Shown: piece after piece, positions 7,762 to 55,004 of the stretch
How positions within the stretch are numbered: position 1 is the stretch's first letter
How the letters are laid out: every line of letters begins with the position of its first letter
Origin: Morchella semilibera
Taxonomy: Eukaryota; Ascomycota; Pezizomycetes; Pezizales; Morchellaceae
Reading direction: 5' to 3'
Assembly: GCA_009192285.1 (NCBI GenBank)
Contig: CM018603.1
Span: forward strand, 2,348,588-2,412,587
Length of the DNA: 64,000 nucleotides
Notes under the pieces: generated by a model
The model's database searches: none
Told to the model about the DNA's origin: nothing
Seen by the model: the letters and a program-made list of their open reading frames with translations, nothing else
Position numbers and translations under genes: made by a program

Positions 7762-7855
7762 ATTGATGCTTTCCCACTCTGTTTCTTCTACTGGCCCGGG
7801 TATGGAGCGGTAAACGTGTCAAAAGTAATTTTGCCAATGGTTGTAAATTATTTTA

Positions 7856-8160
7856 CCACCGGTGGTATAACACGCTGAAATTCAGAGTGCTCGTGCGCAT
7901 TAGTCCCGAAATTAAGCACTTAGTGAATTATCTTGGCATTTATTCGCCACCGGTGGTAAATTAAACGACCGCCGGTGGTGAATTGACGGCCGCCGGTGGT
8001 GAATTGATGGCCACCGGTGGTGAATTGATAGCCACCGGTGGAATAACACGTTGAATTCAGTGTCAGCGCGAATATGTCCTCAAGTTCAGTAATTTTATCC
8101 TATGTATTTTCCCACCGGTGGAATGATATGTTGAATTCGGTGTCAGCGCGAATATGTCCT
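7856..8160. repeat. Array of CCACCGGTGG palindromes
   Basis: Seven copies of CC(A/G)CCGGTGG start at 7856, 7947, 7969, 7990, 8011, 8032 and 8112. The five central ones are spaced 22, 21, 21 and 21 bp, with GTGAATTGA linkers. The first, sixth and seventh copies are each followed by a longer shared block (ATAACACGTTGAATTCAG, then GCGCGAATATGTCC). CCACCGGTGG is a perfect 10-bp palindrome; the two CCG variants are not fully symmetric. No gene lies within 700 bp on either side. Confidence 0.9.
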
Positions 8161-8217
8161 TGAATCAAGCTATCCTATGAAATAATATTTCTAAGTTTGG
8201 AACATGGCGTTCAAATT

Positions 8218-8300
8218 GGGACGTATGAACTGGGCTCGGGATTCTGAGCTCGGGATTCTGAGCTCGGGATTCTGAGCTCGGGATTCTGAGCTCGTGATTA
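8218..8300 (+). repeat. GAGCTCGGGATTCT minisatellite
   Basis: About five tandem copies of a 14-16 bp unit (CTGAGCTCGGGATT). The same unit recurs at 8722-8761 and 8899-8930, where it flanks a MITE. Confidence 0.9.
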
Positions 8301-8761
8301 ATTCTGATGGCGGGATTGGAGATTTGGGATATAAGCTGTAATATGGGACATACATGCTTATGTAGGCAGGCAGGTAAGTAGGTAGGAAAGGTTGCTAGTA
8401 GAGAGTAAATGTACATATTAAATAGAGAAACAATCAAGAGTTTTATTTATGAAGTTCACCTATGCCAGAAGAAGCGTGAATACTGGCCTACCTGCGCGTC
8501 CAGACTCTTCACTGAATAAAATAACCCTTATATAGATATTACCACATATACTAAGGCTGAATATATAACTCTCACCGAAACCATAGCATCCTAAAGGACA
8601 TTATAGAAAATATCAAAATTAATATCAAATAATAATTGATAATCACATGAGCTTTGCATAATCCTCATACGGATATGGGTACGGGCGGTGACGTATATAA
8701 ATAAGTACATCTTAAAGTATACTGAGCTCGGGATTCTGAGCACAGGGTTCTGAGCACGGGA

Positions 8762-8898
8762 CATCAGCAAGACTTGATTTGTCTCCTGATGTCTCCTGAG
8801 CCTCAGGAGACTCAAAAAATATCCAGGAGTCTCAGGAGACTCTCAGGAGACCCGGGAGACTGCTGGGAGACTCCAGTCACAAGTTGAGTTTGCTGATG
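8762..8898. mobile_element. 137-bp MITE, copy 2
   Basis: Same length and ends as the copies at 2 and 10709. It lies inside a second block of GAGCTCGGGATTCT units. The bases GA flank both sides (8760-8761 and 8899-8900), and joining the flanks restores the minisatellite unit. This fixes the element ends and shows a 2-bp target duplication, GA here against TA at copy 3. Confidence 0.92.
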
Positions 8899-9054
8899 GA
8901 TTCTGAGCCTGTGATTCTGAGCTCGGGATAAGCTATATAGTATGAGGACGGGCGGTAAAGGACATAACTACGAAACACATGTAAGTATATCAAAACACTG
9001 GCCAGATTCCTCGAAAATAACACGCTTGATAACGTACCCAATCGCTGCCCTCAA

Positions 9055-11907
9055 TCAATCGATCGAAAATTGAGGTCCGAACACAGAGGCTGCCCGATGC
9101 ATATCCATAAGCTCTCTAAAGCCAATTGTCGTCCCGTATTCGTTCAAAAGCTTAACAGACAGCGCCAGTTCCAGATGGCAGGTAGAGAACTTCAGTAACC
9201 CTTCTCCTGCCCCACCCTCACCTTATCTGTGATGCGAATGGTAATCGTTCTATAAGATACGAATGATGTGCCCAGTATCTCCTCAACCAGCCAGTCCAAG
9301 GCAGCCGAGGGCCACTGAATCCATTCTTCGAAGAGCGTTTGGACACGTTGGCACTTAAGTATAAAATCAACTTCATCAACTCCATCCTTGATATCATGTT
9401 TGTACCGCAAGACTTCGTTCATGGATTCGGAAGTCGGGATCCCGGATTGCAGAAGCCAGGAATCGATATCTTCAAGCCGCAGCGTCGGGTCCTCTTGCAT
9501 CTTTTGGAATAGATTCCGCTCATTCAGTCCCCGAATAAAAGCATCGAGGGCCTGTGACCGGTTTTTCCACTGGGTTTCCCAATATAGACTTGAACGGACC
9601 GCGTTTATGTCGTCAGAAGATTGCAGAGCTTGTTCAATAGATTCCATTCTCCATCCAACACTTTCAAAAACTTCTTGTAGAATCCGGGGTACGCGAGCTC
9701 GAGCACCAGCCTGAGTGCTAGGCCCGCCGTTCACTATATATCCATCAAGGACTCCCATGGCTTCTCCAATCGAGCCATCAACACGAGAAGAATCCGGGGT
9801 ATAGCGCTTTCCCTGGTAACGCCAGTAAGCTACAATGAATACAACGGGATCTAAACCACGTGGCCACGAGAAGTCTTGGTGGCAAAAGACATAGCTTGCA
9901 AGGAGCTTTCCGAACATCTCGTAATTGCGGAGGTTGGGAGATGGGGACCCGAAACCGGGAATGTTGATCCCCCTAAACATAACTGGGTCTTGGTCTTCTC
10001 GAAAGGTACGACTAAAGGGACTGCCATCCACAAAGCTTTCTGACTCCAAATATCGCATCATAACCCGATGAAGAAACGAACGAAAGACTCCACCACAATC
10101 TGCACCCTGTCGGTAATCTCTATGGTCCACGGTGACTCGAGGGTGGGGATTCGCAACCCTCAGATGCCAAGGAGTGAGCTCTATAAAATCAAACAACTGA
10201 CGTATCCAGTCGGGGCTATCACCACCATCGTGGCTAGTACCAAACCCCCACTCAAAACGATCTTCCTCTCGAATGTAAACATCAGGGCTCGGCCCATATG
10301 TTTCTCGAATCTGTGATATTACGCGCTGAAAATGACTAGGTTGGGATGTGGGAGTTGCTAATTGGGATCTCCTGTTTACAGTTTCGGGGGCGGCAACTCT
10401 CGCGGTTGGGACGTCAAGCGTAATGAGAAACGTATCATTGGAGTCATTCACAGTAGGAGATTTCAAAGAGGATTGCGGGTTCCGGATTGTTGGGCTTAGG
10501 GGGTGAATTCTTGGACGCCCAACGCTTCTTCGGCCTCGAGTTGCGCCTCGCCCGTAGGAGCCCCGGGAGCCACGGGAGCCACGACTACTACTTCCCATTT
10601 GCTGCACTTGGCAGCCGGGAGCGTACTCTCCATCGTCTGAGAGGGTTGGGGATCGTGTGCGTCGTCGTCTATTTGAAGGACGAGAGCGCTTGTTACTCTC
10701 CGCTTCTACATCAGCAAGACTTCATTTGTCTCCTGATGTCTCCTGAGCCTCAGGAGACTCAAAAGATCTCCAGGAGTCACAGGAGACTCTTGGGAGACTT
10801 GGGAGACTGTTGGGAGACTGCAGTCATAAGTTGAGTTTGCTGATGTACCTCATCATCCTCTTCATTACTGGTTTGGGAATCCTGAAACACCCCGTGTTCA
10901 AACTCGTCATCCATCTCCCAGCCTTCCCATATCAATTCAGAATCCCCATGTCTTGAATAACTGGGGTCATAATATGGACTCATCTGGTAAAGATCTTTCA
11001 AGGTGAGGAGGTCCGATATAGGAGTGATATAGAAGTTTCGTTTATGATTAGCTCTGCAGCACCATTTGAGAGTTGCTAAATCCTGCACCACATCCCTCCC
11101 GAGAGCTATCAACTTTAATTCGCCCTCCCGCCCGCCTGGATGCTTCCACAATTTCCATTCCTCAGCCCAGTGTCCCAGCCCCATTGATGTCAAAGCTGCA
11201 GTAATAACTCTCCTAACTCCGTTGGCAGTAGAGTCGCTATCCTCGTCAAAATTCACCTCTATATTGCATAACCCTCGGTTATCAAGACGTTTACTCTCAG
11301 TGCTCATGCCGTTAAGAATCATGGGATCAAAGGGTTGTCTGAGATATGTAAAGGTTGCCTTCCAGTATCGTCTTCCAGAGCTCGCAACTGGGGAGTTGCG
11401 AGCTCGTCCGCATAGCCTACGGTATGTTCCTCGAGTCCTCATCTCATTAATTCGACGGGCACGAAATTGGTCTGGCAAATCTCTCCCCCCAGTCCCATAT
11501 ACAGTCGTACCAGCTGATATTGGAGATTGGGGTTCAGCGATGCCAGTGACCGAACGAGTACGGGATTGAACAGGGGATATTGTGGATTCGCTAACCGCGG
11601 CCAGCAAAGCGGGGCCTGGAGGGGCTGCGGTTGCTGGCTGAATATACCTATCGCGGGCCAGCTCAAAATGTTCGAAGGGCGGAGCGGCCCTAAATGGTGA
11701 GGAATTGCTCGCTGGAGAGCTATCCGCAGGTAGACCGCTGAGCATGGTTGCCGGCAAGAACGCGTGAAAGTTATGCCCATGGCCGCACGAGCATATCCCA
11801 GCCGGATCCTGAGCTGTTTGATAATATGATTGACAGCCATTGCAGCTGCTGTTTCGACATTCCGCTCTAGGCCCAAACACCGGCTCGGTGACCGTTGGGG
11901 CGGCCAT
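9055..11907 (-). CDS. HECT-like E3 ubiquitin ligase with N-terminal Cys/His cluster, split by a MITE
   Basis: The first open part (11907 to the MITE at 10845) starts MAAPTVTEP and has a Cys/His cluster at residues 17-48 (C17, C22, C25, C39, C41, H43, H45, H48). The second (10708 to 9192) has an Arg/Gly/Ser stretch and then HECT-like signatures: GADCGGVFRSFLHRV (compare D-x-GG-x-F-R-x-F in HECT proteins), MFRGINIPGFGSPSPN, and YEMFGKLLASYVF. A C-terminal part in another frame (about 9190 to the stop at 9055) holds FSTCHLELAL, which fits the active-site Cys of HECT ligases, and GFRELMD. Known role of the family: thioester ubiquitin transfer. The reading frame is the same on both sides of the MITE once one TA is counted. 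The step to the Cys-bearing frame is either a very short intron or a one-base shift. The present copy is probably not functional. HECT genes of this kind occur in some transposons, which fits the integrase gene 7 kb away. Confidence 0.6.
10709..10845. mobile_element. 137-bp MITE, copy 3, inside the HECT-like gene
   Basis: Ends CATCAGCAA/TTGCTGATG with TA on both sides (10707-10708 and 10846-10847). It lies within the coding stretch of the HECT-like gene and brings a stop about 70 bp in on the minus strand. It differs from the other two copies at only a handful of positions, so the insertion is fairly recent relative to the repeats around 1-8 kb. Confidence 0.92.
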
Positions 11908-11911
11908 TTAT

Positions 11912-12202
11912 GAGCCTAAATACATAGAAGAATTTGTTAGTTGAAGGATTCCTGGTGGCTAGCATTCTTCAGAATACGCAGAGGAGCATGCGTACCTATG
12001 ATAGCGGTAGGGGGGACGAATGATAATTGGTGACTGGCACTTGAGATTTGGCGATTGGGGAGCCTAAATACAGAGAATTTGTTAAGTGAAGGATTCCTGG
12101 TGGCTAGCACTCTTTGGAATACGCAAAGGAGCATGCGTACCTATGAAACGATGGAGAGGAAATGATAATTGGTAACTGACACTTGAGATCTGGTGATTGG
12201 GG
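11912..12202 (-). repeat. Tandem duplication of about 145 bp just upstream of the HECT-like gene
   Basis: Two neighbouring units, 11912-12060 and 12061-12202, each run AGCCTAAATACA, GAAGGATTCCTGGTGGCTAG, GGAGCATGCGTACCTATGA and CACTTGAGAT to GATTGGGG. They lie immediately 5' of the HECT-like gene start at 11907, where its promoter and 5' leader should be. Confidence 0.9.
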
Positions 12203-12542
12203 GGTTGGTAGACCGGTAGCATGAGCGAGTGATATGAGGTGAGAAAATAAGGGCTCTTATCTAGAATTGAAAGCATATTATATGGGGCGTGTGTTAGCAT
12301 ATTCCCTCTACATTTTTGATGCTAGTGTACCTTCTCGACTAGTAAAAAACACTATAGATAACTAACCTTGTATCTTCCTGACGTCTGTAGACTCATATCA
12401 CCCGCCTGTTCTCGCCTCTGAATCCTGCATTAGCTTAGTTTGGGGCAGGGGGCTAAAAATCCGGGTGCTAAGACCCCTTTTCGATGATATATGGTACCTA
12501 GGACCCCCGATTCTGGTGGCGTGAAAGCTCGATTTAAGCTTT

Positions 12543-12745
12543 TGCGCGTACCTATTACTAAGATTATGTTATAGACGTACCTATTACTAATATTAGGGTT
12601 ATAGACGCACCTACTACTAAGATTAGGTTATAGACGGTATATATCCTTGATTCTGGTGACTGGGGACCGTCATATACGGATATCAACTTAAAATTTTGTG
12701 CGCACCTATTACTAAGATTAGGTTATAGACGGTATATACCCCTAA
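12543..12745 (+). repeat. Four units of a 30-bp repeat
   Basis: The word CCTATTACTAAGATTAGGTT followed by ATAGACG occurs at about 12550, 12580, 12610 and 12703. The last two are each followed by a longer shared block (GGTATATA, ATTCTG, CATACGGAT). The stretch from 12203 to 13026 otherwise shows no gene. Confidence 0.8.
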
Positions 12746-13026
12746 TTCTGATGGCTGAAAACTATCACATACGGATCTAAGCACTTATGCACACTTATCA
12801 ATGGGATTAGATTATACCAAGACATACTGAAGCATATCGAATAACTATAGGTAATAATAGAAACGGGTAACGAGAATCCGTATACTATCAACGTATTTTT
12901 TAGTGACAAAAAAATTGGATAATAAAAGGAAAGAGTCACTTAAAATACATTATATGGATACAGAGTTGAGAACTGGCACTTGATGCTCAAGCCACAAACA
13001 ATAAATGCCTAAGATAGCATCCCCAA

Positions 13027-14104
13027 TCACCCAGAGGCTGATTCATCGTCGTTATCGGCCGTTCCGTCAGAGTCGGCCCCCGCAAAAGCATACTCGGTAT
13101 CATCAACCATCTCGTGATCCATTTCCGGGCTTTCGCCGAATGTGGCCATTATTTTTTGGACCGCTTCGGACTCCAGATCATCTAATCTAATAGCCTCGTC
13201 GCCACGACTCAGTCGAATCTCGCGGATTCGCGCTTCCCATTCCGCAACACGCCGCCTAAGGGTTGCAGGCGCGGTGGGTTCCAAAAGCTCGGCCTTCTGT
13301 TCCCGCCGAATCATTGCACGGCTAAGTTCCTCGATTGTCATTTTGACTTCTCTGTGTCTTCCAGTTCTTGCCACAGAGCCCATTCCTTCCAAAGCCTCTG
13401 GAACCAGGCAGTTCCCAGCTCGCGATTTTGGTCTGGATGAAGCAGTAGACATAGAGAGTTGTATTCTCGACGGGATGGAATTCCCATGCCCCAGGCTCGG
13501 TCAGGATTGACTTGGTTCTGTGGGTTGGGGCCTGGTAATAGGTCAGGAGGGCGGTGGAGAAAATGAAAGACTAATGTTGCAAAGTTAAGTACGGAATCGG
13601 GATTAATATCGAAGGATTGATATTGTTTGAGCTTATAGATAGCATCAGCATAGTTTCAAAGCCCTCAATTCCCAAGTCCCAATACACAAATGACAGATGG
13701 GGGTATAGCTACCTTATCATCCCCTCCTTTTCCATTTCCTAGACTACCATATGCTCGCAACCAAGAAATCACGTTTCTCGCGGCTATGAGTTTTGTTTTT
13801 AGCCCGATTACGGGCGTAGCTTTCTCTATTTTGCCGGGCGCGAACCTGTGAATCATTAGCATCTATTGTTGAGATCAACGATAAAATGCTATACCGCAAG
13901 TCTATCCTGTTCCCTTCTGTATGCAGGGCGACGCTTCACACCTTCACGCAATATCTTCATCTCTTCTACCGCTTCGGGTGTATGGTGGTCATCCTCAGGA
14001 GGGTGTCCTCGACGGTATACCCATACATCATAATGTCGACCCAAAGCACTCATATTTCTGAATTCTTTAGAACACCATTTGCATTGTGGTTTGGTTGTTG
14101 CCAT
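13027..14104 (-). CDS. Finger protein with a J-domain-like stretch and acidic tail
   Basis: Exon 1 (14104-13895) encodes a C2H2-like finger near the N-terminus: C-x2-C at residues 8 and 11 (CKWCSKEF), then NMSALGRH. A 49-nt intron (13894-13846, GTATAG donor, TGCTAATGA branch, CACAG acceptor) leads to a basic exon (RARQNRESYARNRAKNKTH). After a second, less certain intron a frame from about 13630 reads SLCLLLHPDQNRELG, FQRLWKEW, which resembles helices II-III and the HPD of a J-domain. That frame stops at TGA in AAATGA, overlapping the ATG of a further 102-codon frame rich in Glu/Arg that ends in an acidic tail at 13027. Whether the last two parts belong to one protein is unclear. I do not recognise the family. 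It is transcribed in the same direction as the HECT-like gene. Confidence 0.45.
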
Positions 14105-14447
14105 TTGCGAAGCAGTAGATTTGGGTTTGCAAACAAAGAGGGGACTGAATAGGTGCGGGAGAGTTGAGGAGGGTGTTGTTCAGCGGCCTGGGGCAACTTT
14201 TATGCAGCAGATTACATAATCAAACCTAACCACGGTAACGTGATGAATGTAACGCCCAGAACGTAGTTCCTGGCATGCGTGATAGTTTGTAGCATTATTT
14301 CCATTCCCTGCGTTAATTGATATCACGATTACTGAAAAGTGTTAGGTTTCTAATTTAGCCTAACCGCCAGCCAGATTGTATAGAATATATACATTCATCT
14401 CCGAACTAGGAGCCACCACCACGACCTTATTCTAGTTTATTCCCAAA
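14105..14447. other. Intergenic, nothing seen
   Basis: Spacer between two minus-strand genes; it should hold the 3' end of the gene at 14448 and the promoter of the finger gene. The word TTAGGTTT and its inverse AACCTAACC occur, with no clear element. Confidence 0.5.
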
Positions 14448-15009
14448 TCATGCAGCGCCTATTATGTAGAGGAATATTTGCTGTCTAAGTACCTTGCTGC
14501 TCCTTGGTAATGATTGGCAACCATGATATTGAGCGGCGTTGTAGAATATAAGGAGATCGCGCAGATTATCGCTGGTCAGAGCCGTAAACCCATCCCAAGT
14601 AAAAGGGAACCTGGGTGAGAATTCCATGTATTCATTGACTATTGGTTCCAAGAAGGCAGCTTGGTTGAGTGGAGCTAACCTGTTCTTCAATCGTGCCATA
14701 CAGTTATGTTCTCTATCACAGATATAAGTCATTGCCTCCAGATCACGGACCCGGAGCTATGGGGCCTACATACGCTGCATAGATACGTTGTAACGTGCTC
14801 GGCGGGCCGGGCATAGGATCCCCGGCAACAGGCCTGGTTGCCCTAGCGGCGACCCGAAAGGTCGTCGCTAGGGTCCTTCCGCTGAACAATAAACTCCGAC
14901 CCGCAATGAGGGCTGGCGGCGGAACGCCGGGAGGCATCACGACGGGAGCCCAGACCCCGCGATATCTACCAATTGGAGCAATAAATGGGGCGCCAGCATT
15001 AGCCGCCAT
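14448..15009 (-). CDS. Small orphan protein, 166 aa, paralogue of the gene at 18113
   Basis: Two exons: 15009-14774 and 14712-14448. The 61-nt intron (14773-14713) has a GTATGT donor and a TGATAG acceptor and joins the frames in phase 2. Starting at MAANAGAPF, the N-terminal half is Ala/Pro/Gly-rich. The C-terminal half is helical: EHNCMARLKNRLAPLNQ, FTWDGFTALTSDNLRDLL, IFYN and a hydrophobic end FLYIIGAA. The LT-x-LRDLL-x-FY pattern faintly recalls a SAP-type helix pair. The gene at 18113 has the same length, the same intron phase and place (after about 77 codons), and a comparable W-x-G, LT, L-x-x-FY series. Function unknown. An upstream ATG at about 15162 would add an N-terminal extension and is less likely. 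Confidence 0.6.
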
Positions 15010-15153
15010 GCTAGAGTTGAGGGTAGAACCTAACTGAGTGCTCCGAGATGGGAGTTGCGAAATAGGGACTCTGGGCGGGGGAGAAGATTTATAGTGGTTC
15101 AGAGTGAACTCATTCTTTGTTTGATATATAGTTTCAAGGTTTCCTTTGCTGCC

Positions 15154-15580
15154 GCGATACATATTGTTTCGCTAGAATCACTCGAGAATCCTGGACAAAG
15201 GACGGTGCGAGGTGGGAGATCCTAACTAACCCAACTAACCAAGATACGCTGGCCCACACTATTGAGTTAGCACATTCTCTATGGCCACGATACATATTGT
15301 TTCAATGGATAAAGGACAAACGAAAGCAGGACCCGCTACCTAAAATTGAGAACTGGGAACTGGGAGATGCGAATATTCTTTCACCGGGGATCACTTGGGA
15401 ATCCTGATCACAACACAAACGAAAGCAGGACTCCCTACCTAAAATTGGGAACTGGGAGATGGGAGATGGGAGGGGCGGGGTGGAAAATACGTTGGCTCAC
15501 ACTATTGAGTTTAGCCATTCTCTATGGTGCCACGATACATATTGCTTCACCCGAGATCACTCGGGAATCTCGGACATGCA
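15154..15580. repeat. Repeats in the divergent promoter region
   Basis: CCACGATACATATTG(T/C)TTC occurs three times, near 15154, 15288 and 15528, two of them followed by a GATCACTCGGGAATC-like block. GGACAAACGAAAGCAGGAC and CACACAAACGAAAGCAGGAC precede CCTACCTAAAATTG twice. The array lies between the minus-strand gene ending its 5' side at 15009 and the plus-strand gene starting at 15920, so it may carry regulatory sites for both. Confidence 0.75.
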
Positions 15581-15919
15581 CACACAGCTAGCAGGCTACG
15601 TGAAAATCCAAGGGTGCTAGGGCCTGCATAATTACAAAACGACTTATGCGTCTGTGCCACTTACCGTAGCTTAAATCAAACACATATGCGTACCAATCCC
15701 TGAATCAAGTATAAATTATATTATACCAACGCAGCTGCAAACCATAATGTGCCATGCCTGCAGAATGGTGTGTATATTGCTTCTTCTAACCCTCTAACTA
15801 GGGCTCATGTGATTACGTACGCCCGCTAGTACTAACCCTAACTACACCCGTAGTATGGGGTTCTGTTCCCTCTCCCTGGCCTGCTTCATCCTACAATACA
15901 CAAACCATCGATCTAGAAG

Positions 15920-16737
15920 ATGTCAGACCTCACAACCTATCGTCGACAGGTTCTGTCAAAATGGTTTTTAAGAGGCATGTTATCAGGGAACGCAATGGCA
16001 ATGATTAATCGCTGTGTTTCCGAACTGCAGGAGAGAGGAATCGTCGAGTCCGTGGGGGGGGTTAAGGTTCGTTTACTAGAGCTCCAGATTCCGAATTCAG
16101 AAACTGCAAGGCTAACTTGTCCTTTAGGGTTGGATCAAGGATGAGAAGGCTAGACTTAAGGCATCGGGAAATAAAAGTGTTCTCGAGAACTTCGAACTAG
16201 CTTTACAATGGTCTAGAAGGTAATCAAACTGGGAGCTATCTATTATCGACCCGACCTGACATTCAATTAAGAAATCAAAATCCTTCGCCGTGGGAGAATA
16301 GCCAGTGGTTTAGGCAGCCCAGGCAATCTTCTACGGGAACCCAGAGGTCGATACCACGGGGCACGGAACCTGGTGGGCAGTCAATCCAGCCTTTACAAGC
16401 ACTGCCAGGCCCAGGGATGCCCGCCCAGCCCTGCCGAAATTTGCCCGCTTTTCCATCGCCGTCTACGCTAAAGGATGAGAATAGAGTCACTGCTCTGATC
16501 CCCATGATTCCAGCTCCCACTCCGCGCCCCGTAGATCGTGTGGAGCTTAGTAAATATCAGCCGGTGAGAAAGCGGAAGGGAAAAAGCCAGCTTCAACTAT
16601 TGATTGAGGCAGCAGAGACATCTCATCATTCTGTAGCAGCTCATTCCGGAGCTCTGATTCTTTTGTCTGCAGAGGCACCCGCGGATTGGAGCCTAAGGCT
16701 TCGGGTACGAAAGCCTATATCGTATAAGATACGGTAG
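15920..16737 (+). CDS. Orphan protein, 234 aa
   Basis: Three exons fit: 15920-16066, 16128-16219 and 16272-16737, total 705 nt. Intron 1 (61 nt) has a GTTCGT donor, GGCTAACTT branch and TTTAG acceptor. Intron 2 (52 nt) has GTAATC, CCTGACATT and TTAAG. All phases agree. The N-terminus is helical and charged (MSDLTTYRRQVLSKWFLRGM, CVSELQERGIVESVGG), the middle is Gln/Pro-rich, and the C-terminus carries a basic patch (VRKRKGKSQ) that could serve nuclear import. I do not recognise the family. The gene faces away from the 14448 gene and towards the repeat array at 16885. Confidence 0.6.
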
Positions 16738-16884
16738 CTGGGCTTGGGGGCGTATATTTTGGTTTATTCTTACTCTAGGTTATAAATTATATTTACATAT
16801 TCTTCTGCTTTTGGCCAAATCGTATCCATAATTCACTTTCGCAAGTTAAGGAAAAGGTTGATGTAGAAAGCAGATTGCTGACTG

Positions 16885-17910
16885 CCAACACAAAGCCCGA
16901 ATTCCGCTCCTAGTACTGCTTTGAAGCCTAATTTCAGCATGTTATACAACCGTAGATATTCGCTAGCATCTACGGTATGTGCCGGTGCACCTCCCAACCC
17001 GAATGTCAGTTCTCACCTTTCCAGGTTAGGGCGCATTGGCCCCACCCACACCCGAGCCCAGACCTCGAGCTCTTGGCGGCTATCACACCAAAAAACGGTC
17101 GCCAAGAACTAAATATTTGGAGTCAGAAGTTGTTGCAAACAGGATCCCTGTAGCCAAGAGCCCAAACTCCGTGCCTACTACAGCTGTGAGGGCTGATTTC
17201 GGGATGCTTATCTGCCGGTTTGCACCTCCAGTTGCCAGCTGCCAACACGATCCCAGGTTGCCCAAACTCCGCGCCTACTACAGCTGTGAGGCCTGATTTC
17301 AGGATGCTTACCTGCCGGTTTGCACCTCCAAGTTGCCAACACGATCCCTGTAGCCAAAAGCCCAAACTCCGCGCCTACTACAGCTGTGAGGGCTGATTTC
17401 GGGATGATTATCTGCCGGTTTGCACCTCTGCCAACCTCGATCACAATACCGTCGGCTTTGGAGCCGATATCTAGTGGTGTGGTTGTTACAACCTTGTTTG
17501 TGGGATGTGGTTGTTAGTGCAAGGGCCGTTGAAGCTTAATTTTGTGTCCGTGCCCATCCGCTTTGGCATCAGATCTGCATTTCCAACTGCCAACTACCAA
17601 CGGCCAACCCTGTCTCAGACGCAAAGCCCAAATTCCACGCCTACTGCAGCATTAAAGCTGAATTCCAGTGCCAAATTCTGCCAATGCTGGGTTAGGGTTC
17701 TAAATCCTATCGACCAACCAAAGTGCCTATATTCCGACGGTTTGGTTAGTAATGTAGTATAGGTAGGGTAACCGCAAGATGTTTCGCACACTACGGTACA
17801 CATACACTAGATGATGTAATCCAGTACTGCTAACCACCCTGTAGGGACAAACCCCGGATTCCACGCCTAGTGCGTCATTGATACTGAATTTCAGCGTCTC
17901 GTGCCTATGA
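16885..17910 (+). repeat. Degenerate array of about 95-bp units
   Basis: Three close copies start at 17143, 17249 and 17343 (GATCCCTGTAGCC, CGCCTACTACAGCTGTGAG, TGATTTCGGGATG, CTGCCGGTTTGCACCTC). At least three diverged relatives lie at about 16888, 17608 and 17848, each with a CCCAAATTCC(A/G)CGCCTA-like word and a GCTGAATTTCAG-like word about 25 bp on. Open frames across the array are only echoes of the repeat. It fills the space between two plus-strand genes. Confidence 0.85.
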
Positions 17911-17989
17911 AGCCATTTGTATGATCCTTCATGAACCAATGACGTCTACAAAAGCAAAACTACAATGTTGGTTAGTTTGGTAGTGTTTG

Positions 17990-18013
17990 TATATATATAT
18001 ATATATATATATA
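17990..18013. repeat. (TA)n microsatellite
   Basis: Twelve TA units about 100 bp upstream of the ATG at 18113; might act as a TATA-like promoter element. Confidence 0.95.
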
Positions 18014-18112
18014 GGGCCTTCTTTCTCTTCGAAATCAGCAACTTTTGAAAACCGGCAACCGCTCTCCCTCCTCCCAATCCAGAATCACCAATTCGCAACC
18101 AGATCGTTATAA

Positions 18113-18661
18113 ATGTCATCTGCATTTACCGCCGCCGCCGCCCCAGCTGCTGCCGCCCAGCTGCCGCCCCCCTGCTGCCGCCGCCCGCTGCCCCCCCCTG
18201 CTGCCGCCGCCCCTGCTGCCGCCGCCGGGATTGATAGAGCTCGGCCCTCTCTCCAGCCTGTGAGAACCACGCCCTTCCAGTACCGTAAGGGCTTCCCCGA
18301 CAAGCCTAAGACAAGTATCGTAAGCGCAATAGCTGCCAACCTGTATGCTGTCCCACCACTACCGAAACCCTGAGTGCTAACCTACCTATACAGCGCCTAC
18401 AATCATTCCGTTGCGGCAATCAATAATGCCCGCCGCGCGCAGCGCGCTTTCCATACCAACCCGCGCTACGGGTTCTTAAAGCCGGTGGGAGCTGTTTTGG
18501 GGACGCCACACCGCCTGGCTCCAAGGTGGCATGGAGAGATGGACCGCCTAACCAGGGAGCAGTGGGGTGAATTGGGGAATTTTTATGGCTTCGTTTGGGA
18601 TGATTCGGTTTCGTTGGAGCAATGCAGGTATGCCTACGGGAAGGCATACGGGTGGGCATAG
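18113..18661 (+). CDS. Small Ala/Pro-rich orphan protein, 165 aa, paralogue of the gene at 14448
   Basis: Two exons: 18113-18342 and 18394-18661. The 51-nt intron has a GTATGC donor, GTGCTAACC branch and TACAG acceptor and joins in phase 2. Residues 5-40 are almost only Ala, Pro, Gln, Leu and Cys from a GCC-rich repeat. After it come TTPFQYRKGFPDKPKTS, then in exon 2 AYNHSVAAINNARRAQRAF, PRYGFLKPVG, a WHGEMDRLTREQWGELGNFYGF stretch (residues not all shown in one run in the paralogue) and a C-terminal YAYGKAYGWA. Length, intron place and the LT/FY spacing match the gene at 14448. Function unknown. Confidence 0.6.
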
Positions 18662-18724
18662 GTTTTCTTTCTTTTTTTTGTTTTTAGGATTTAGTATTTT
18701 GAATGATACGTTATGAAGCGGGTC

Positions 18725-18815
18725 AAATTCTCGCTCCGGGCCGTAATCAGCACAATTCGTGCCCAAATTCTCGCTCCGTGCCGTAATCAGCCTCGTGCCC
18801 AGATTCTCGTTCCTA
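18725..18815 (+). repeat. Three units of about 45 bp
   Basis: CAAATTCTCGCTCCGGGCCG or a near variant occurs at about 18725, 18765 and 18800, with GTAATCAGC and TCGTGCCC between. It lies in the spacer between the convergent genes at 18113 and 18910. Confidence 0.75.
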
Positions 18816-18909
18816 GATAGGTATCTCGTAGTTAGCAGCTCGGGGCTCGGAAAGACGCATTGGTTGATTGGTCAATTGATTGATTAATATTACACTATTT
18901 TCCCCCACT

Positions 18910-20530
18910 CTAACTTGCCAATTCCTCGAGTATACGGCTCCTGAGGTTGGAGTACGCCTTTACACCCGCTTCATCCCCAGGCTCATGAGCCCCGTACTGT
19001 ATCGCCCAGGTTTCTAGGGATTGTGTACTTAGTCCAAGCTCTGGTGGGTCTTCAAGATGTACCTGCTCGTCTCCCGCATCACCCGGGGCAGGGAGCCTTT
19101 CGGATGCGTAGTTCACATCATCATCATCTGGAAACATGGGTGCGGACCCCTGGCTTGCCCAACCATCGTTCCACATCCGGATTGGTGTCTTGGAGCCGGC
19201 AGTCCTGACAGGGTGGTAATCCCAGTAAGAGCAGAATGAGTCCAGAGCCTGTTGTATTCGCCATTGAAACACCTTGGTAAGGCAATATCCATCAACTAAC
19301 CAATCCTCGTGGCCTCGATGAGATAGGATTCCACAAGCCTCCATTTGTTGAAAGAGGGCTCGGAAACGATGGCCCACCTTGATACCGTGATCGTACCAGA
19401 GACGCTCGATACGTGTATTTTGGGTCGATTTGCCTGTTAAGGCAGGGCGCGCACTCTCGGGGTGTAGACGCATCATTTCTTCGACGACGAGAACATTCTC
19501 CCCGCCTTTATCGCAACGTGTCTTTTTGGGAATGCCAAACTTAAGAATAGCCTCCCTGAAGCATTCTGTTGGTAGTGAATTCGTTAGGTTTTGAGGCACC
19601 AGGAGGCGGGGTCAAGAGTTGGGAGTTGGGAGATGGAGTTAAACCACCATGTACATACCTAATACAGTTTGCGCGTAATTGTTAGTCCTAACCTGGAGCC
19701 ACATTATCCTTCGGGAGAAACCATCTATCGCGCCGTGAGTGATAAAGCCCCACCGGATCAGCTTATGGTGCCCATCAAAGTGCCACACACAATTCGGGCC
19801 AGGGACAAAGTAGGGGATACGGATTGGCAGTTGGCGAACGCGGGTTTGGATTCTCCTTGTGGGGTCAATCCGTAAAAGACTTTCACGAATGCGATTTTCG
19901 GTAACGCTTATCCCTTGCGATCTGATACTGGATACCACAGCCCGATATCCCGAGGAAGGATGCTCTTCAAGAACAGAAAACGCAAGATCATCAATTTCAT
20001 CGTCCGTGAAGGTTTGTCGGTGGAGTTGCTTGGCCTCCGCTCGGCGTCTGTACAGAGTTGACCGGGAGAAGTTGGACTCCTTAACAACCTCATTCAGACG
20101 ATATCCCTGATTGATATTTTCCAGGACATCAGGAAGGTTAATGATGATACGCGGCCTGCCCGGCAGAACCTACAATCGGGGTGCTCTGGACGGCCAACAC
20201 AGGATTTGAGGCTTGCGAGATCGCGACTCTCGCAGAGGAAAGTCGCGCGTGTAGAGATGCAGCGTGGTTTCTCCATGACGCGAGTGATTCGGGGCTGACG
20301 GAATCAGCAAGGCTTGCCAGCTGCGAGATGATGTCCTCTAATCGGGACTTCTGAACATCGATTTGTGATTCCGTGTAGAACGTAGCTTCTGCAAGGAATA
20401 TCTCGACCTGCAGAAAGAGAGACTCAACCAAGCTCCAAAACGAGGCCCACCTAGAAAGTGGCAGACTTGTTGACAAAACGACCGAGTGAACGGAAGAACT
20501 GATGTCCGGGTAAGGGCCAATGGGGTTCAC
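18910..20530 (-). mobile_element. DDE integrase-core gene of a transposon-like element
   Basis: The minus strand encodes, in order, a Ser/Ala-rich helical N-terminal part, a helix-turn-helix-like stretch (NEVVKESNFSRSTLYRRR), and an integrase core: VWHFDGHHKLIRWGF with the first acidic residue, AIDGFSRRIMWL, then FGIPKKTRCDKGGENV with the second, and NTRIERLWYD. A clean 93-nt intron (19658-19566; GTATGT donor, CCTAACG branch, CAACAG acceptor) separates the two core parts, as spliced members of this family have. From memory, WH-x-DGHHK and R-x-DKGGEN mark a family of eukaryotic integrase-core proteins common in mushrooms and in fish and coral genomes; I do not assign it to LTR elements. It looks close to whole. 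No terminal repeats were found. Confidence 0.7.
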
Positions 20531-20865
20531 GGTAACCCAGCCCAGTCGGGAGTGGCCTATTGGAATTCGGGGATGGTGGGTGGGATTGACCGAGAGTATG
20601 GGAGGTGGTGAGGTTTGTTAGTGGGGTTAGGTTTGATCTCGTAGTCGTCGGAGATGTGTTAACCAAAAAGAAAAAAAGGTTTTAGATTTAGAAAGAAAAA
20701 AAAAATACACGGAGCATAAAAAACGTCGAAAAAAAACGATTATGCCTTAGTTCCGAAACCTCAGGATCGCCGTTTGAAACAATTTTTTGATGTTGGAAAC
20801 CCCCCCCTTTATGTATAACAAGTGTTGGGGTTGCCCACCCACTGCATGGGGTCCTTTTTTTCGCA

Positions 20866-21137
20866 ATGGATGAAAAGTCGACCAACTACGGCCGGAATCA
20901 TCCTCGCTTTCGCAATGTACCCTTCTACGATGCTACTAAGCCTGACGATACTCTCGGTGGATTCATCCAAAACGGGTCCGTTACAGAATCAAGTTTCCTC
21001 CAGATACTCAGGATCATTCTTGTCACGGAGGCTCTGGTGCGTGTTGGTCGATGAGCGACAACTCTTTGCAGCCCAGGGCATACAATATATACTACGATGC
21101 CATGTGCTCACTTGTTAAGATGTGTCATGGTTAGATA
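20866..21137 (+). pseudogene. Gene remnant, unrecognised fungal family
   Basis: A 62-codon frame from an ATG at 20866 (MDEKSTNYGRNHPRF, DDTLGGFIQNGSVTESSFL, IILVTEAL) looks like real protein. A neighbouring frame goes on with WSMSDNSLQPRAYNIYYD to a stop near 21137. The LQP-x-x-Y-x-IY words recall a fungal HNH-nuclease-type domain but this is a weak resemblance. A frame change between the parts suggests a decayed gene or an unseen intron. Confidence 0.35.
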
Positions 21138-23025
21138 AATTATGGGACAGACAGGCCCGATTAGCGCCAGTGACGAACCGTGGGCGCAACGCATTATGTC
21201 GTTAATCGGGAGGATGCATTTCGTGAGGTAATCCGTGTTATATCCGGAGTGGTAACCACCCTATATAGAGCTTTGGAGCAGCTCATATCCTTCCCTTGGA
21301 GAAAGAGAGTTCACTTCAGAGTGGACTCCTTTTAAGGGAGTATGTCTATTCATTGTTTGATCAATATTTGGTCTCAGTGACTCCGGATGTGAATTAAATT
21401 TCTGGGGCTCCGGAGGAAAAGTTTGAGATGGAGCTGGAAGTTAGATTGCTGAATGTACTAGTACGTAGGTTTTAACCTTTAATGGTAATCTATTGCTACA
21501 TGTGTTCTGTTATATTTCTTGGGGGGGGGGGGGGGGGCGCTAGCCCATTATATGCCAGCAGGGAGCGAAGCGACGTTTGTAAATGCATGCAAGTACTTAA
21601 GTTAGCAGTTGATGCTTTTCTTAAGTAGATTACTACCGGTAGTGGCTGGTTTGAAAGACCCGGGATGGAGTGAACGGTGAGCATGATGAGGCGTTCGCGG
21701 GGCTGGGAACGCCTATTTAGGTAAAAACTACCTTGTTTAGGTTTAGGCCCAATAATTTATGTAGATACATGTGGTGTCACTCACCTTTTCTTCATCTTCG
21801 GTACAACTACATACAAGTACCACAACGCAACAACAGAGACAGCATTCAGTGGTGGGTTTCTTTCGGGGGGTTTCTGGCGTGGTGCTTTTGAGGTGATGGT
21901 TGACTGTTTTAGCATGGCTGAGCTACGTTTCAACAACCCCTATGGCGAATTCATCTGCCGGATTGGCAAATACTACAAACGGGCTCACAGATACGGCCAC
22001 TGAAATGAAGAGAGTCTAAAATATCAATATGGCAGCCCAACTCAACGCAACGCAATCCAAGTGCAGATGCAACGGATGGAAGAAAACATACTCCGGGCTT
22101 GGGCATTCGTATATATAGACATACATGTACATTCATTGTACTATCTTTAGAGAATGAGACTCAGTGCTGAAATTGAGACAGTCAGAGGAACAGCTTTCCC
22201 CGATTGCTTAATTCCAAGATTATGGACAAAAATACGCCATTAAATCCATTGTATGGTAGAGACCAACAACTGATTCCAAATTTTCCGCCAACGAGTGCCC
22301 GTATTCATGCTTTGAATGGCAAGTAAGCTCTAACCCTCCAGAAAGAAACCTCCTACCTACAAGTACTAATTCCAATATCTTTATTAGCTGCAACTATCAA
22401 CCAGCTTCTGTTGGCTTTAGATTTGCCGGTGAGCGGTGGAATTGTGAAAAAAAGGAATAGGTTTCGTCAGGAAATTGGGTTAACTGTATTGTGATCACAA
22501 TTTCGTGGCACCCAGTTTTCAGTATTAGGGGAAGGGAGGAAAAACCCGGGGAGCTCGGATTACTAACGGTAGTGGCTGGGTTGAGACACATTGTGGCTTG
22601 TTAAAGTAGGTGCTCCCCCCTTCGTAGTGACACTAAATCTGGCGAAAGTGAACCATGGCCCGGACGAGCACAATTCCGTGTGTGTGGTATTTAATGTTCA
22701 CAGGGATTATGTAGCGTGCCCAATGAGGTGGCTCGTAGTTAGATGCTGCCGCGTTAATAATAGAGTGCCTGCAGCAATTTACTAACTGCTCTACTGATTT
22801 AAAATGGATAATATTAGATTCACATTGATCCTCTGCAGCTAGTGTAACTATAATCGTGCTATCTAGAACTTGGCTAGAAATATTTTATAATCCACCATAA
22901 ATTGCACCTACATGTGGTTAATGTAGGCGCGGTCATAAAGCAATTATTTTTTACAAAAGCTCATCAGTCATGAAAAAGAAAAGAAACAAAGATTATGAAA
23001 ATGAGAGTGAATGACAACCGCCCAA
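21138..23025. other. No gene seen
   Basis: Contains a 17-base G run at 21521-21537 and the first TACATGTA octamer at about 22122. A TACTACCGGTAGTGGCTGG-like word occurs twice (about 21628 and 22560). Short open frames lack support. Confidence 0.5.
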
Positions 23026-47816: not shown

Positions 47817-49092
47817 ATGCTTTCAAAAATCTTCATCTTCGCCCTCCTCCCTGCGGTATCACTCGCACAGGTTGTTGGCTCAGCGACTGGTTTCGCGAAA
47901 GGTACCACTGGTGGTGGGAATGCTACTCCCGTCTATCCAACTACTATCGCTGAGTAAGCTTTCTTTGTATAAGGATTATTTTTGAGATACTAACAAAAGT
48001 TTTAGGCTGAAGAGTTATTTGACGGACTCATCCGCTCGTGTGATTATGCTCAACAAAGAATTTGACTTCCGTGGCTCCGAGGGAACTGTCACCGCTAGCG
48101 GGTGCCGCCCTACTTCCAACACCTGCCCAAATAACGGCGGTCAGGATGCTATCAACGGTGCAAATTGGTGCACTAGCGCTGGATATCCCACCGTCTCTGT
48201 CACCTATGATGTGGCTGGGACTGGGTACATCGATGTAAAGAGCAACAAGTAAGGCTTTGTTCCAGCCCTGATATGGGTTTGAAAAATTACTAATAGATAT
48301 TTTAACAGGTCTATCGTAGGTGTGGGAAGTGCTGGTGTTATCCGTGGAAAGGGTCTTAGGGTAGCCAACGGCGAGACCAACGTCATTATCCAGAACGTAC
48401 ACATTACCGAATTGAACCCTGAATACATCTGGGGAGGAGATGCAATCACCCTCGCCGGTACTGATCTCATCTGGATCGACCACTGCAAGTTCTCGCTCAT
48501 CGGACGTCAAATGATCGTGACTGGATATGACCAAGCCGGCCGCCTCACCATTTCCAACAACGAGTTTGATGGTGAGACATCCTGGTCCGCCACTTGCAAC
48601 GCAAACCACTACTGGACCATGCTCTTCTACGGCTCCAGCGACCTCGTCACCTTTGCTGGAAACTACGTCCACGATTGCTCTGGCCGTGCCCCCAAGGTTG
48701 GTGGTTCCAGTGAGTCAAACATCCTCTTCCACGCCGTCAACAACTACTTCTACAACATGCTGGGCCACTCATTCGACATCGGCACCGGTGCCAACGTCCT
48801 TATCGAGGGTAACGTCTACAAGGGTGTCACAACCCCCATCACCACTGCCAGTGCCACTGCTGGAGGCCAGATCTTCAACGTTCCTTCATCTTCTTACACT
48901 TCGAGCTGCACGGCGACCCTTGGACGTGCATGCGTGGTCAACAGCATCTCCAGCAGCGGCGCGTTTGCAGATTACACAAACACCAAGGCCCTCACAAACT
49001 TCTCGGGCAAGAACGTTCAGGCTGCCACTGCTGCCTCCAGCGTCGCCTCCAGCGTTACCTCCAACGCCGGTATCGGAAAGATTGGAAACTAA
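47817..49092 (+). CDS. Secreted pectin lyase (PL1 family), 387 aa
   Basis: Exons 47817-47953, 48006-48248 and 48309-49092; introns of 52 and 60 nt with GTAAGC/GTAAGG donors and TTTAG/AACAG acceptors. Pectin lyases cut highly methylated homogalacturonan by beta-elimination outside the cell. A signal peptide ends at about residue 17 (SLA, then QVVG). Fungal pectin lyase marks are present: [19 protein letters not shown] (168-173), [28 protein letters not shown] with W219 and W229 lining the substrate cleft, and [10 protein letters not shown] with the presumed catalytic Arg253. The aromatic residues and lack of the calcium-binding Asp set speak for pectin lyase rather than pectate lyase. Tandem paralogue of the gene at 53073. 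Confidence 0.93.
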
Positions 49093-52000
49093 ATGGTTTA
49101 TAATTTTTTCTTGTATTTTTTCTTTAATATATAGTTTATAAAGAGAGGGGGGCTGTATGTATAGGGCTGTGGTGGTGGTAGTGGTGGTGGTGGTGGTGCA
49201 TGTACGATATTAAAATATTAAAATTCCACTCGAGGTTGGATCCTCTATAAATTTCCCCTCAGGCTTCTTTACAAGTAATCTGATGGCCACGAGACATTTG
49301 AAAGCTCTTGATTGATTGATAATTCATACATGCATATCGGGGAATTAAGGTGATTGTTATGAACCGCTCGAATAGTGCTTTTGCTGGGGCAATTCTGTTT
49401 CAGTTTGTTCTCCACATTACATAATGATTGATCGGTCTTATTATATCCCCAATTATTACCGACAATTTAAACTGACGCGGGCGTAACACTACTGAGCTGA
49501 CCCCATCACGAATTATCACTCGGATACCTAGCTTTGCCGGCTTTGGACGCGGTTTACTCCCGGAGTAATCCCACATGTCAAAAGAGGATATAGTACCTCG
49601 GGGTCTATTGTTGCTTTTTGTTTATATTATATATAAGATCGATCTGTCCTTGTTCTATTCCAGGACACTCCAGATCTTGGCAGCGTCGCTCTGGGGGTGG
49701 CAGCTATGCATGGACTGTAAATATTAGTCTGACCATGGTAAGGTATACCGTTGTTACGTGTGTCTTGAGGTCTATTAATTCTTGGCTATATCAGATCTAC
49801 CCTTACTATAATACTATATCTAATCACCAACACACCTACTGTTTCAGTATTTCAGTAGCTCTTGGCAGCACCACTTCAGACATGTATATAGACCGCAACT
49901 ATTACTCCAGGAATAGTAGAACAGACTCTTGGCTTTATGTTCTACGTACTACCGCACCGCAATTTTAGCCTACTGTCATGGCTGGTACGGGTGATTGTCC
50001 TGGGCGATCTGTTAAGCCTTGAGGCTGGCGGACGAAAGGAAGATAGGCTAAAGTCTAGTCCTGGGCGAAGCTTTCACTCCTGCTTGTCTGCCGGACGGGA
50101 ATCTTGGCGGTACCTATTGTAGTTAATAGCCCGGTGGGAAGGATACTTGTCTGTCACCTTGGAGGGGGTGAAGTAGGTCTTGGGTCACCGCTGCTTGGGT
50201 TGTGCTAAAAGGTTTGCGGGGGGGATGTGAAAGTCTTAGTCCATGGTACTGGCGCCCCAAAAATTTTGTTCTGTGGTTAGCAGAGGGCTGGGTCACCGCC
50301 GTGGCTGTATGCTAGGCGTAGCTAAGTGTCCAGGCAGCGGCTGGCGGGCCACCAGAAAGTAATACTAGTTAGCTATAGCCAAGAAGACAGGCAAGGCACC
50401 AGCGTAGAATTCCTAGCAGCTATAAGAGTTTCCAGCTCGGCCGAAGCTACCGCACCGCACCGCACCGCACCGCACAGCATGAGGCAGTAAAAGTTGTAGG
50501 CATCTCCTGCGCGATCGCCTCCAAGTCACAGGCCGGCTGATCCACAACATCTCTGCCTACTGTGAAGGGCCACAAGAAGCTCTCACGGCAGCCCAAGACG
50601 GGTGAAAGAGCCGTCGCATCACTATATAAGATAACCACTATACATATCTGACTAGCCACCTAACTCGATGGACATATTAGGACCGACGCTGACAGCTGCA
50701 AGTTACCAATGGTCACTGCCCGACGCACCTCCGAGTGGATCTCCGGGCATGCATAAGACTGCTGGTCCGGGGATACGTAGGGCCATACGGAGATGTGGGG
50801 TAGGGATGATTAGTGATGTTCTCGCTCATATAGTTCGTGATATATAAAGCCGTTGGGGAATGGTACAGATGGGGGGGGGGGTCGGGGTGATTTATAGCAT
50901 GCCTGCTGAGATAAAGAATGACCATTTAGAAAGACTCGTATGTAGCAGTATTAGGGCTAGGGCTATATCGCAGTTTTATCGTAGTGCCATGTTTTAGCGG
51001 ATATGTTTTTGAAGGGGGTTGATTAAAGTGATTTATCCGCCCAGCATTTTGTCGAAACACGCCGTTTGGCCCTCTGTAATATTACTGTCGTTTCAAATAA
51101 GTAAGTTCTCTAGTAGTTGTACTATTATAGCAGTGGTACAAGTGCTAGAGCTTTTACAACTCGCGACTCTTGCATCTAGCAGTTAATAGGGGAACACCGG
51201 AGCCAGCCTGGGCAGCGCTACCATGGATAGGAGGAATGCATTCAGGAACACCCGGCCAGGCCTTCCGCCTCGGTTAATACCGCCGTGAAATCCTGCAGGT
51301 ACTCTAAGTGTGTCGGTGCAGAGTAAGCTAACTAGGTGCCTAGCTAACCGAGGCCATTAGTACAGCCTTCTATTGCAGCTTCTGCGCTATGAAGACTTGG
51401 AACTTTATTTACTCTATCGTTTTTACTAGCACCCTTGTGCTCTGGTCGGAAAGATCCCCGAGAGGAAAAAAAATAAATAGAGAGTTTGGGTCGGTTCGGT
51501 TAGAAGGTGCCGAGCGAGAGAGATCTCAAGAGGTGAGATGTGATCCTTTTGACCTGAGGGGGGGGGGGGTCATGGATCGCTCTCAGGTATATGTACCTAT
51601 AGTATACGCATGCAGTAGTGATGGACGGATTGGATATCTTTATTTTGACGACCTGGGTCGGGCGGTCCGCTACTCTTCTCCAAGTAGTATTCTTTTTTTC
51701 CCTCACAGCAAGGGATATATCTGAGAATGAGTGAAATCGAGAACGGGCTCAAAGGTCGCGTACTCCCCCCAACAGCAGCTATCCAGTAAGCCATGTTAGT
51801 CCAAAAGTAGGTACTGCATACCGCATGTTCCTCAGCTCATTGATCAATACTACACGTACACGGCAAAAGCCGCCCCAATGTAATATATAATTATCCGAAT
51901 TGGGGTTTCCAAACGTGGGGCACCCTTCATCTATTATAGGGTCATCCTCCTAAGTGGCAATGCACTCTAACTTAAATCCTATACCTGGCCAGGACAGTCG

Positions 52001-53072: not shown

Positions 53073-54555
53073 ATGCTCGCCAATATCATCGCTCTCGCGG
53101 TGCTCCTGCCCGCTGCGGCCCTCGCACAGGTCGTGGGCAGCGCCACCGGTTTCGCAAAGGGTGTGACGGGTGGTGGAACTGCTACCCCCGTCTACCCAAC
53201 TACCATTGCAGAGCTCAGGAGCTACCTCACTGACTCGTCGGCCCGTGTCATCATGCTGAACAGGGAGTTCAACTTTAAGGGCTCTGAGGGAACCGTTACT
53301 GAGAATGGTATATATATTCAAACAGAGATGCGGGATTATTCTAAAAGGCTAACTCTTGCGGTTTAACTAGGCTGCCGCCCATCCAGTAACACTTGCCCCA
53401 ACGCAGGTGGCCAGGACGCCATCAATGGTGCAAACTGGTGCACTAGCGGTGGATACCCTGTTGTCTCAGTCACATATGATGTGGCCGGGACTGGGTACAT
53501 TGATGTCAAGAGCAACAAGTATGGCCCCCTCCGTCTCCCCACCCACACCCGGTGATTGATACTGACATGCCGTAGGTCCATCGTTGGAGTTGGCAGCGCC
53601 GGTGTCATCCGTGGAAAGGGTCTCAGAATCGCCAACGGCGTGACCAACGTCATCATCCAGAACGTTCACATTACTGTAAGCTTAATCTCTCCATACCTGC
53701 ACGTCCCACCTGATAAGTAGGCCTGGACACTAACAGTCACCAGGAACTCAACCCACAATACATCTGGGGAGGAGATGCTATCACCCTCGCCGGTAGCGAC
53801 TTGGTCTGGATCGACCACTGCAAGTTTTCGCTCATCGGACGTCAAATGATTGTGACTGGATATAGCCAAGCTGGGCGTGTCACCATCTCAAACAACGAGT
53901 TCAACGGCGTCACCAGCTGGTCTGCCAGCTGCAATGGTGACCACTACTGGACCATGCTTTTCCTCGGATCCAGCGATCTCATCACCCTCGTCGGAAACTC
54001 CATCCACGACTGCTCTGGACGTGCCCCCAAGGTTCGTGATCATTACCCCTCAGTCACGAGGTATCACTCGCGCTAATAAGGAAAAAAAAAAACAGGTCGG
54101 AGGTGCCTCTACCGCCAACGTTGTCCTCCATGCCGTCAACAACTACTTTGCATATATTGGTATTTACCGCCTATTTTACCCCCTGCGTGTGTGTTTACTG
54201 CAGACGCTAACATACCCTTCCAGGTGGCCACGCATTTGATGTCGCTACTGGTGGTAACGTCCTTATTGAAGGAAACGCCTTTGTCTCCGTCACCACCCCC
54301 ATCACTTCCGCATCTTCCAGTGCTGGCGGTCAGATCTTCAACGTCCCCTCAAGCTCCTATACATCTACCTGTTCTACCTACCTCGGCCGTAGTTGTGTGG
54401 TTAACAGTGTCAGCAGCTCCGGAACATTTTCGAGCTACACTACCACCGGCTTCTTGGCCAACTTCGCAGGAAAGAACATCCAGGCGGCGACCTCTGCGTC
54501 CGTGGTCATCGCGAATGTCAACGCGAATGCCGGTGTTGGAAAGATTGGAAACTAG
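53073..54555 (+). CDS. Secreted pectin lyase (PL1 family), 388 aa, tandem paralogue
   Basis: Six exons: 53073-53307, 53371-53518, 53576-53675, 53744-54031, 54096-54159 and 54224-54555; introns of 57-68 nt, total 1167 nt with matching phases. The signal peptide ends near residue 18 (ALA, then QVVG). It keeps [42 protein letters not shown] and the GRSCVVNSVSSSG block, and ends in VGKIGN like its neighbour, so it should have the same activity. Compared with the paralogue it lacks the first intron, shares only the one within SNK/SIV, and has four others. Six residues around YFAYIGGHAFD differ in loop length. Same strand, 4 kb apart: a local duplication that is not recent. Confidence 0.92.
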
Positions 54556-55004
54556 ATGGACGGCGAGGTTACAGAACAGAGGGGAGAATGCGCATGGGCG
54601 TAAGTAAGAATAAATAAATGTAGTAATTTAAAACATTTTTTGAATAGTGCCGTGGAGTGAAGTGAGTTTTAAATTCTGACTCTGTAAGGTGTGTTGATGT
54701 GTATAATCTGGCAGGCGGTTTGTAGGAAGGTAAGTAGGGCGACAGGTAATAAGTGGTGGAACGCCCTGAGAGTACAAACACCAAATGTTGGTGGCGTTTT
54801 ACCAAATAGGTATCTCTGTGTTCCATCACTTATTACCCACCGCTGTACATGTACTTATGTGTTGGTGGCACTGGAGGCCTACATGTGGTTTGCTCCGTGC
54901 ATGCATGCGCCAGTGATGTCTCGATCATGCAATATCACTCGAGGGACAATCGCCAACCTAGCCCTAACGGGGGGTGGCCGAAGGCCCTCATAACTACATG
55001 TACA

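Follow-up and report, generated by a model that had tools for sequence, protein, structure and literature searches.

A probable IS3EU transposon with candidate HECT-like cargo in Morchella semilibera

The window analysed here is a stretch of 64,000 nucleotides of the Morchella semilibera assembly GCA_009192285.1 (contig CM018603.1, given below as C1:2348588-2412587), from a genome of 56.8 Mb in 23 contigs. Positions without a contig name are those of the window. The block at 7801-20821, whose main genes lie on the reverse strand, is one mobile element. It very probably (we put it at about 0.92) belongs to the IS3EU superfamily of cut-and-paste DNA transposons: a 13-kb copy, truncated on the right, of an element that is 13.75 kb long when complete. 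The copy has kept its left end and lost its right end. The original prediction had tentatively placed these genes in a single mobile element at 8900-20860, for which no terminal repeats or target duplication had been found. The grouping holds; the element begins 1.1 kb further left, at 7801, and a complete copy elsewhere in the genome has both terminal repeats and a target duplication.

Results

The block recurs as a transposon with defined ends

A near-identical integrase gene is present at four further loci: A (C1:1867196), B (C2:2765798), C (C2:2818913, with one internal stop) and D (C3:2143213). A region of 40 kb around each of these loci was compared with the window. The similarity of copies A and D to the window starts at 7801, with differing flanks, and that of copy A spans the HECT-like, finger/J-like, orphan and integrase genes up to 20821. 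The main pieces are 98.0–99.6% identical to the window in copy A, 93.8–98.0% in copy B, 97.3% in copy C and 95.5–99.2% in copy D, with lower values for short pieces from repeat arrays.

Copy A (C1:1856063-1869813; 13,751 bp) starts with TATGG, ends with CCATA and is flanked on both sides by CCTATC, a 6-bp target-site duplication (TSD). The integrase, HECT-like and finger/J-like genes and the orphan frames all lie within this one pair of terminal inverted repeats (TIRs). The proposed genome search for co-located integrase and HECT-like genes found them together in copy A, and copies D and E (the latter on C16) hold a partial version of the same arrangement. The substitutions relative to copy A, counted in pieces of at least 400 bp, are 66/12,670 for the window copy, 119/7,434 for B, 33/4,535 for C, 115/13,507 for D and 28/6,490 for E. 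Because the copies differ from A by only 0.4–1.6%, the family looks young.

The two ends of copy A form inverted repeats that can be aligned for about 600 bp with 78% identity, including gaps that largely reflect different numbers of inner sub-repeats. In the window, the left TIR (7801-8298, forward strand) starts with TATGGAGCGGTAAACGTGTCAAAAG, contains 21-bp and 14-bp sub-repeats and matches the right ends of copies A, B, C and D in inverted orientation, in whole or in part. It is preceded by the hexamer CCCGGG (7795-7800), presumably a copy of the target site, which is also found beside the right end of copy D on C3. TATGG or CCATA is present at the visible ends of the window copy and of A, B, C and E, and at the left end of D.

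A genome search with the first 430 bp of the element, in which 40 of 167 candidates were scored, gave at least 77 matches. Five of these are full-length left ends and four are right ends, and there are many short pairs of inverted ends approximately 330–380 bp apart. Twenty of these short derivatives were fetched from about 25 end pairs chosen by eye, which together with copy A makes 21 sites. An exact TSD is present at 11 of the 21 (five of 6 bp, copy A included, five of 7 bp and one of 8 bp); among 420 mismatched left-right pairs, no duplication is as long as 6 bp. Eighteen of the 20 derivatives have the termini TATGG..CCATA.

The transposase and the termini point to IS3EU

The transposase is predicted to be encoded by two exons. 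Exon 2 (18913-19611 within the frame 18910-19611, reverse strand) matches PF24764 above the cut-off (E-value 4.4e-29) and carries the second D and the E of the DDE triad, 34 residues apart (D-34-E). Exon 1 (19642-20658, reverse strand), which contributes a helix-turn-helix (HTH) and the first D, has a broken frame in the window; in copy A it matches rva_4 (6.7e-21) and, below the cut-off, HTH_7 (E 0.0011). The integrase-core gene of the original prediction is thereby borne out, with an additional upstream exon.

IS3EU elements of rust fungi (Pucciniales) are described, in the parts of the source used here, as having TAYGG..CCRTA termini, a 6-bp TSD and TIRs longer than 30 bp (PMC12730594), and IS3EU elements generally as having TA..TA ends and usually a 6-bp TSD (PMC10045372). 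The present element has ends of both descriptions, the 6-bp TSD in copy A, TIRs longer than 30 bp and an rve-type DDE transposase, which suggests that it is an IS3EU element. The termini and TSD length stated for Pucciniales are alike here, and the TSDs of 6–8 bp in the derivatives differ from those of the IS3EU/GingerRoot superfamily as given in the sections of PMC10045372 consulted. A DDE transposase, long TIRs and accessory enzyme cargo are further shared with the TET/JBP-bearing IS3EU elements of Pucciniales and Tuber indicum. In those elements, as far as the cited parts of PMC12730594 describe them, TET/JBP lies between the transposase and alpha-kinase genes, whereas the cargo here is HECT-like and finger/J-like. 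No TET/JBP match was found inside copies A–D or the window.

A second, unlike family agrees with this assignment and appears to be IS3EU too. It is represented by a 6,459-bp element at C21:2986481-2992939 with TACGG..CCGTA termini, GGGCTG on both flanks and a PF24764 match. This element also holds an uncharacterised 325-aa frame, and a stretch on C5 is 99% identical to it and has the same right end.

Several observations weigh against the IS3EU reading. An exact TSD of at least 6 bp is missing at 10 of the 21 sites; two of these have 6 bp with one mismatch, and the ten include one derivative whose right end is unclear and whose flank is cut short (L058). Six of the 11 exact TSDs are 7 or 8 bp, above the usual 6. 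The ends also vary: one derivative ends in CCAAA and another starts with GATGG, the right end of copy D reads TATGA and a further left end, F, reads TATAG. Among the copies fetched, copy A is the only one that has both ends with matching flanks. The assignment rests on ends, duplication and domain rather than on a transposase tree, and the alpha-kinase of TET-bearing IS3EU elements had no match in the genome in a search run without a positive control.

The 904-aa cargo protein is probably HECT-like

In copy A, the Cys/His and HECT-like open reading frames of the original prediction form a single uninterrupted frame of 904 aa. The gene is in three pieces in the window (9058-11907, reverse strand; pieces 10834-11907, 9198-10712 and 9058-9219), split by a miniature inverted-repeat transposable element (MITE) and by a frame change near 9200 that cuts off the last 54 residues. 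Copies of the gene are present in A, D, E (C16:660761-663473) and the window, those in D and E also being broken, and decayed remnants of short length are found on C11, C14, C16 and C20. Among the copies, the nonsynonymous/synonymous codon changes are 14/2 in the window, 19/9 with three stops in D and 5/1 in E. Such mostly nonsynonymous changes are expected of decay after insertion and therefore demonstrate no selection on the frame; its length and its recurrence are what argue for it as a gene.

The protein contains D-x-GG, YEMFGKLLA, GTS and STC in the order and spacing of HECT domains. We take D-x-GG, FGKLLA, GTS and STC to be HECT motifs, and an alignment of host HECT proteins backs all of them except D-x-GG, which is present in one of six host stretches, most of which begin too late to contain it. 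The full pattern, which was composed after the sequence had been seen, occurs in one of 20,000 shuffles of the protein and its core in 15 of 20,000; none of the other 37 frames of at least 300 aa contains it, and the core fits five of the six host HECTs. The motifs suggest that the protein is probably HECT-like.

The main rival accepts the element and holds that the 904-aa protein is an unrelated orphan whose motifs resemble those of HECT ligases by chance. Every profile comparison agrees with that view, and the HECT identity originally assigned to the gene found no backing from any of them. The protein has no Pfam match to HECT (PF00632) at E 1 or at E 10 and no HECT match in a phmmer search of the PDB to E 10, and none of the 16 PF00632 matches in the genome lies inside an element copy. 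Against a profile of six host HECT genes it scores -1.3 bits with HMMER; with hhalign its score is equalled or exceeded by 5 of 60 shuffles, and with our own aligner the scores for the whole, the C-lobe and the N-lobe are equalled or exceeded by 47, 116 and 15 of 120 shuffles, respectively. Two single-sequence AlphaFold models (pLDDT, the predicted local confidence score, 34.5 and 41.2) are of low confidence and unusable for the fold. Given the order and spacing of the motifs and the rarity of the post hoc pattern, we regard a chance resemblance as rather unlikely and retain the HECT-like reading.

A 988-aa frame at C6:1354864, considered as a relative of the HECT-like gene, was rejected: it encodes a proline-rich protein, and the match is short and due to chance. 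Viral contigs scanned with the HECT-like protein and transposase exon 1 yielded no relative.

The finger/J-like gene is related to genes outside the element

The predicted finger/J-like gene was recovered as two exons on the reverse strand. The C2H2-finger exon (13892-14179) matches zf-C2H2 at E 0.008 and the J-like exon (13030-13655), whose frame is broken in the window, matches DnaJ at E 0.049, both below the cut-off. The J-like exon of the element carries an HPD motif. Outside the element, the two exons recur in the same order at C5:137235-138303 (71% and 64% identity for the finger and J exons, respectively) and at C11:1071446-1072598 (51% and 31%). The C5 relative has a DnaJ match below the cut-off (E 0.15); the C11 relative has none and is without HPD. 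For the J exon of the element and its C5 relative, the ratio of nonsynonymous to synonymous substitution rates (dN/dS) is 0.29 (NG86) or 0.50 (YN00), which, for a single pair, argues for a genuine, constrained gene. The element may have acquired its gene from the one on C11, which would then be the host source.

These outside relatives would also suit an ordinary host gene cluster entered by a small integrase transposon. This is very improbable, for it is contradicted by copy A: the gene set recurs between these ends, in full and with a TSD in A and in part in D and E. Copies B and C are this element truncated on its left rather than integrase-only elements, and the integrase was not found always alone with ends of its own inside the block. 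Equally improbable is that the block belongs to a different class of giant fungal element, Starship or Polinton/Maverick, which the size and the cargo recall and against which stand the PF24764 transposase, the long TAYGG..CCRTA TIRs and the 6-bp TSD; no other family exceeded the curated cut-off in six window and eight copy-A frames, in scans that included no dedicated search for Starship or Polinton markers.

The remaining features of the element are orphan frames and repeats. The predicted 234-aa orphan consists of two frames on the reverse strand (14451-15171), namely 14451-14756 and 14746-15171, of 102 and 142 aa. A genome search with the 102-aa frame found it in five element copies and nowhere else. 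A small orphan frame of 95 aa (18374-18658, forward strand) is 100% identical in copy A. Two small paralogues had also been proposed, but the candidate frames match each other weakly (25% over 36 aa, E 0.004). All four predicted tandem arrays are present: a 100-bp unit repeated three times (17132-17428), which is matched in copies A–D, and further arrays at 12547-12636, 18129-18227 and 18724-18813.

The right side is truncated and other copies are split

In the window copy, the transposase and HECT-like frames are broken and the right end is absent. The copy terminates at the loop of a long palindrome, of which the window retains the left arm (20714-20821); in copy A the palindrome has perfect 94-bp arms and a 4-nt loop. 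The palindrome is a likely break site. Beyond it, the sequence at 20825-22325 is single-copy except for short partial matches.

The hexamers flanking the ends of the copies pair across contigs in 3 of 12 left-right combinations: CCCGGG for the left of the window copy and the right of D, AAACCAG for the left of D and the right of B, and GAGGAT for the left of F and the right of C. The second piece of D is immediately preceded by a single N, and another single N precedes the piece of C by 81 bases. Because of these letters at or near the junctions, we do not adopt translocation as the explanation; assembly joins are as likely. At the point corresponding to 14245-14253, copies D and B are interrupted by a transposon. 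Its ends are TAGCCTCG..CGAGGCTA, one on C3 and the other on C2, and its duplication, GAATGTAAC, is 9 bp long. Contigs C9 and C10, and likewise C21 and C22, share sequence at nearly equal coordinates at the loci seen (on C9 and C10, at 32 kb, 3,414 bases are 100% identical). Some contigs of the assembly may be duplicates or haplotypes.

Nested insertions and the rest of the window

The MITE within the HECT-like gene (10708-10845, to within 1–2 bases; 138-bp alignment) has CATCA..TGATG ends and a TA duplication, and copy A has the empty site. A second member of the family (8761-8898, to within 1–2 bases; duplication GA) is repeated in the genome and also has an empty site in copy A. A third member of this 136–138 bp family lies at positions 1-138. 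The search with 8759-8900, in which 40 of 958 candidates were scored, gave at least 41 matches, the query's own included, 40 of them at 96–100% identity; several 100% identical copies suggest that the family was probably active recently. In the portion of the source drawn on, PlavakaB elements have CATCA..TGATG termini and a short TSD of 2–3 bp (PMC12730594). The nested insert, and this insert only, is alike in its termini and 2-bp TSD, and is thus Plavaka-like.

The motif TACATGTA, whose absence had been taken to set the block apart, is indeed missing from it. It is likewise missing from all other parts of the first 22 kb, so its absence is no marker of the block. The claimed contrast in gene density is doubtful because ordinary genes are present at 22-64 kb: a scan of nine window frames found a P-type ATPase, a CoA-transferase, a pectate lyase and AMG1. 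The related stretches 47844-49096 and 53103-54559 (68–82% identical), the first of which matches pectate lyase, are likely a duplicated gene. At 58221-59117, overlapping direct self-matches with offsets of approximately 100–540 bp lie beside a GPIID_WHD frame (57226-57891); this is perhaps a repeat-domain gene.

Discussion

The two-exon transposase, with its HTH and DDE core, would most likely bind the long inverted ends TATGG..CCATA, excise the element and reinsert it at staggered cuts of 6–8 bp, by a chemistry presumed to be cut-and-paste. The same transposase most likely also moves the 330–380 bp derivatives that share these ends, and the element may be active at present. Its cargo is the 904-aa HECT-like protein together with the finger/J-like protein, which has two related genes at other places in the genome.

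For the HECT-like protein, the leading candidate role would be the transfer of ubiquitin to host factors that limit the element, which is possible though short of probable. Beyond this, IS3EU might have recruited a highly diverged HECT ligase with an N-terminal Cys/His module, together with a host-derived zinc-finger/J-like gene, as a counter-silencing kit in which the ligase marks a host silencing or repair factor. We consider this kit speculative and, on balance, unlikely. By analogy, the ligase could then play the part thought to be played by TET/JBP in sister IS3EU elements, a comparison that is just as speculative. At C10/C9:32333-35746, a PF24764 integrase lies 0.9 kb from a Tet_JBP-like frame (26.1–26.6 bits; cut-off 34.9). 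This locus is possibly a TET-bearing IS3EU element in line with those reported, and the genome may thus contain one such sister element.

Elements of this kind are known, and the cargo reported for fungal IS3EU in the parts of PMC12730594 relied on here is TET/JBP and alpha-kinase. In the literature searched, to which most subscription journals and Repbase reports were external, no paper joined IS3EU or Zisupton with HECT, and none combined HECT, integrase, DNA transposon and Agaricomycetes. Among the matches listed for looser queries, no title or abstract opening concerned such an element. HECT-like and finger/J-like cargo was thus not found reported in that literature.

If the ligase-like cargo is what it seems, it would point to protein turnover as a second route by which a DNA transposon could meet host silencing. 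Since the family looks young and includes many short derivatives as well as one copy with both ends intact, both its mobility and the function of its cargo are open to test.

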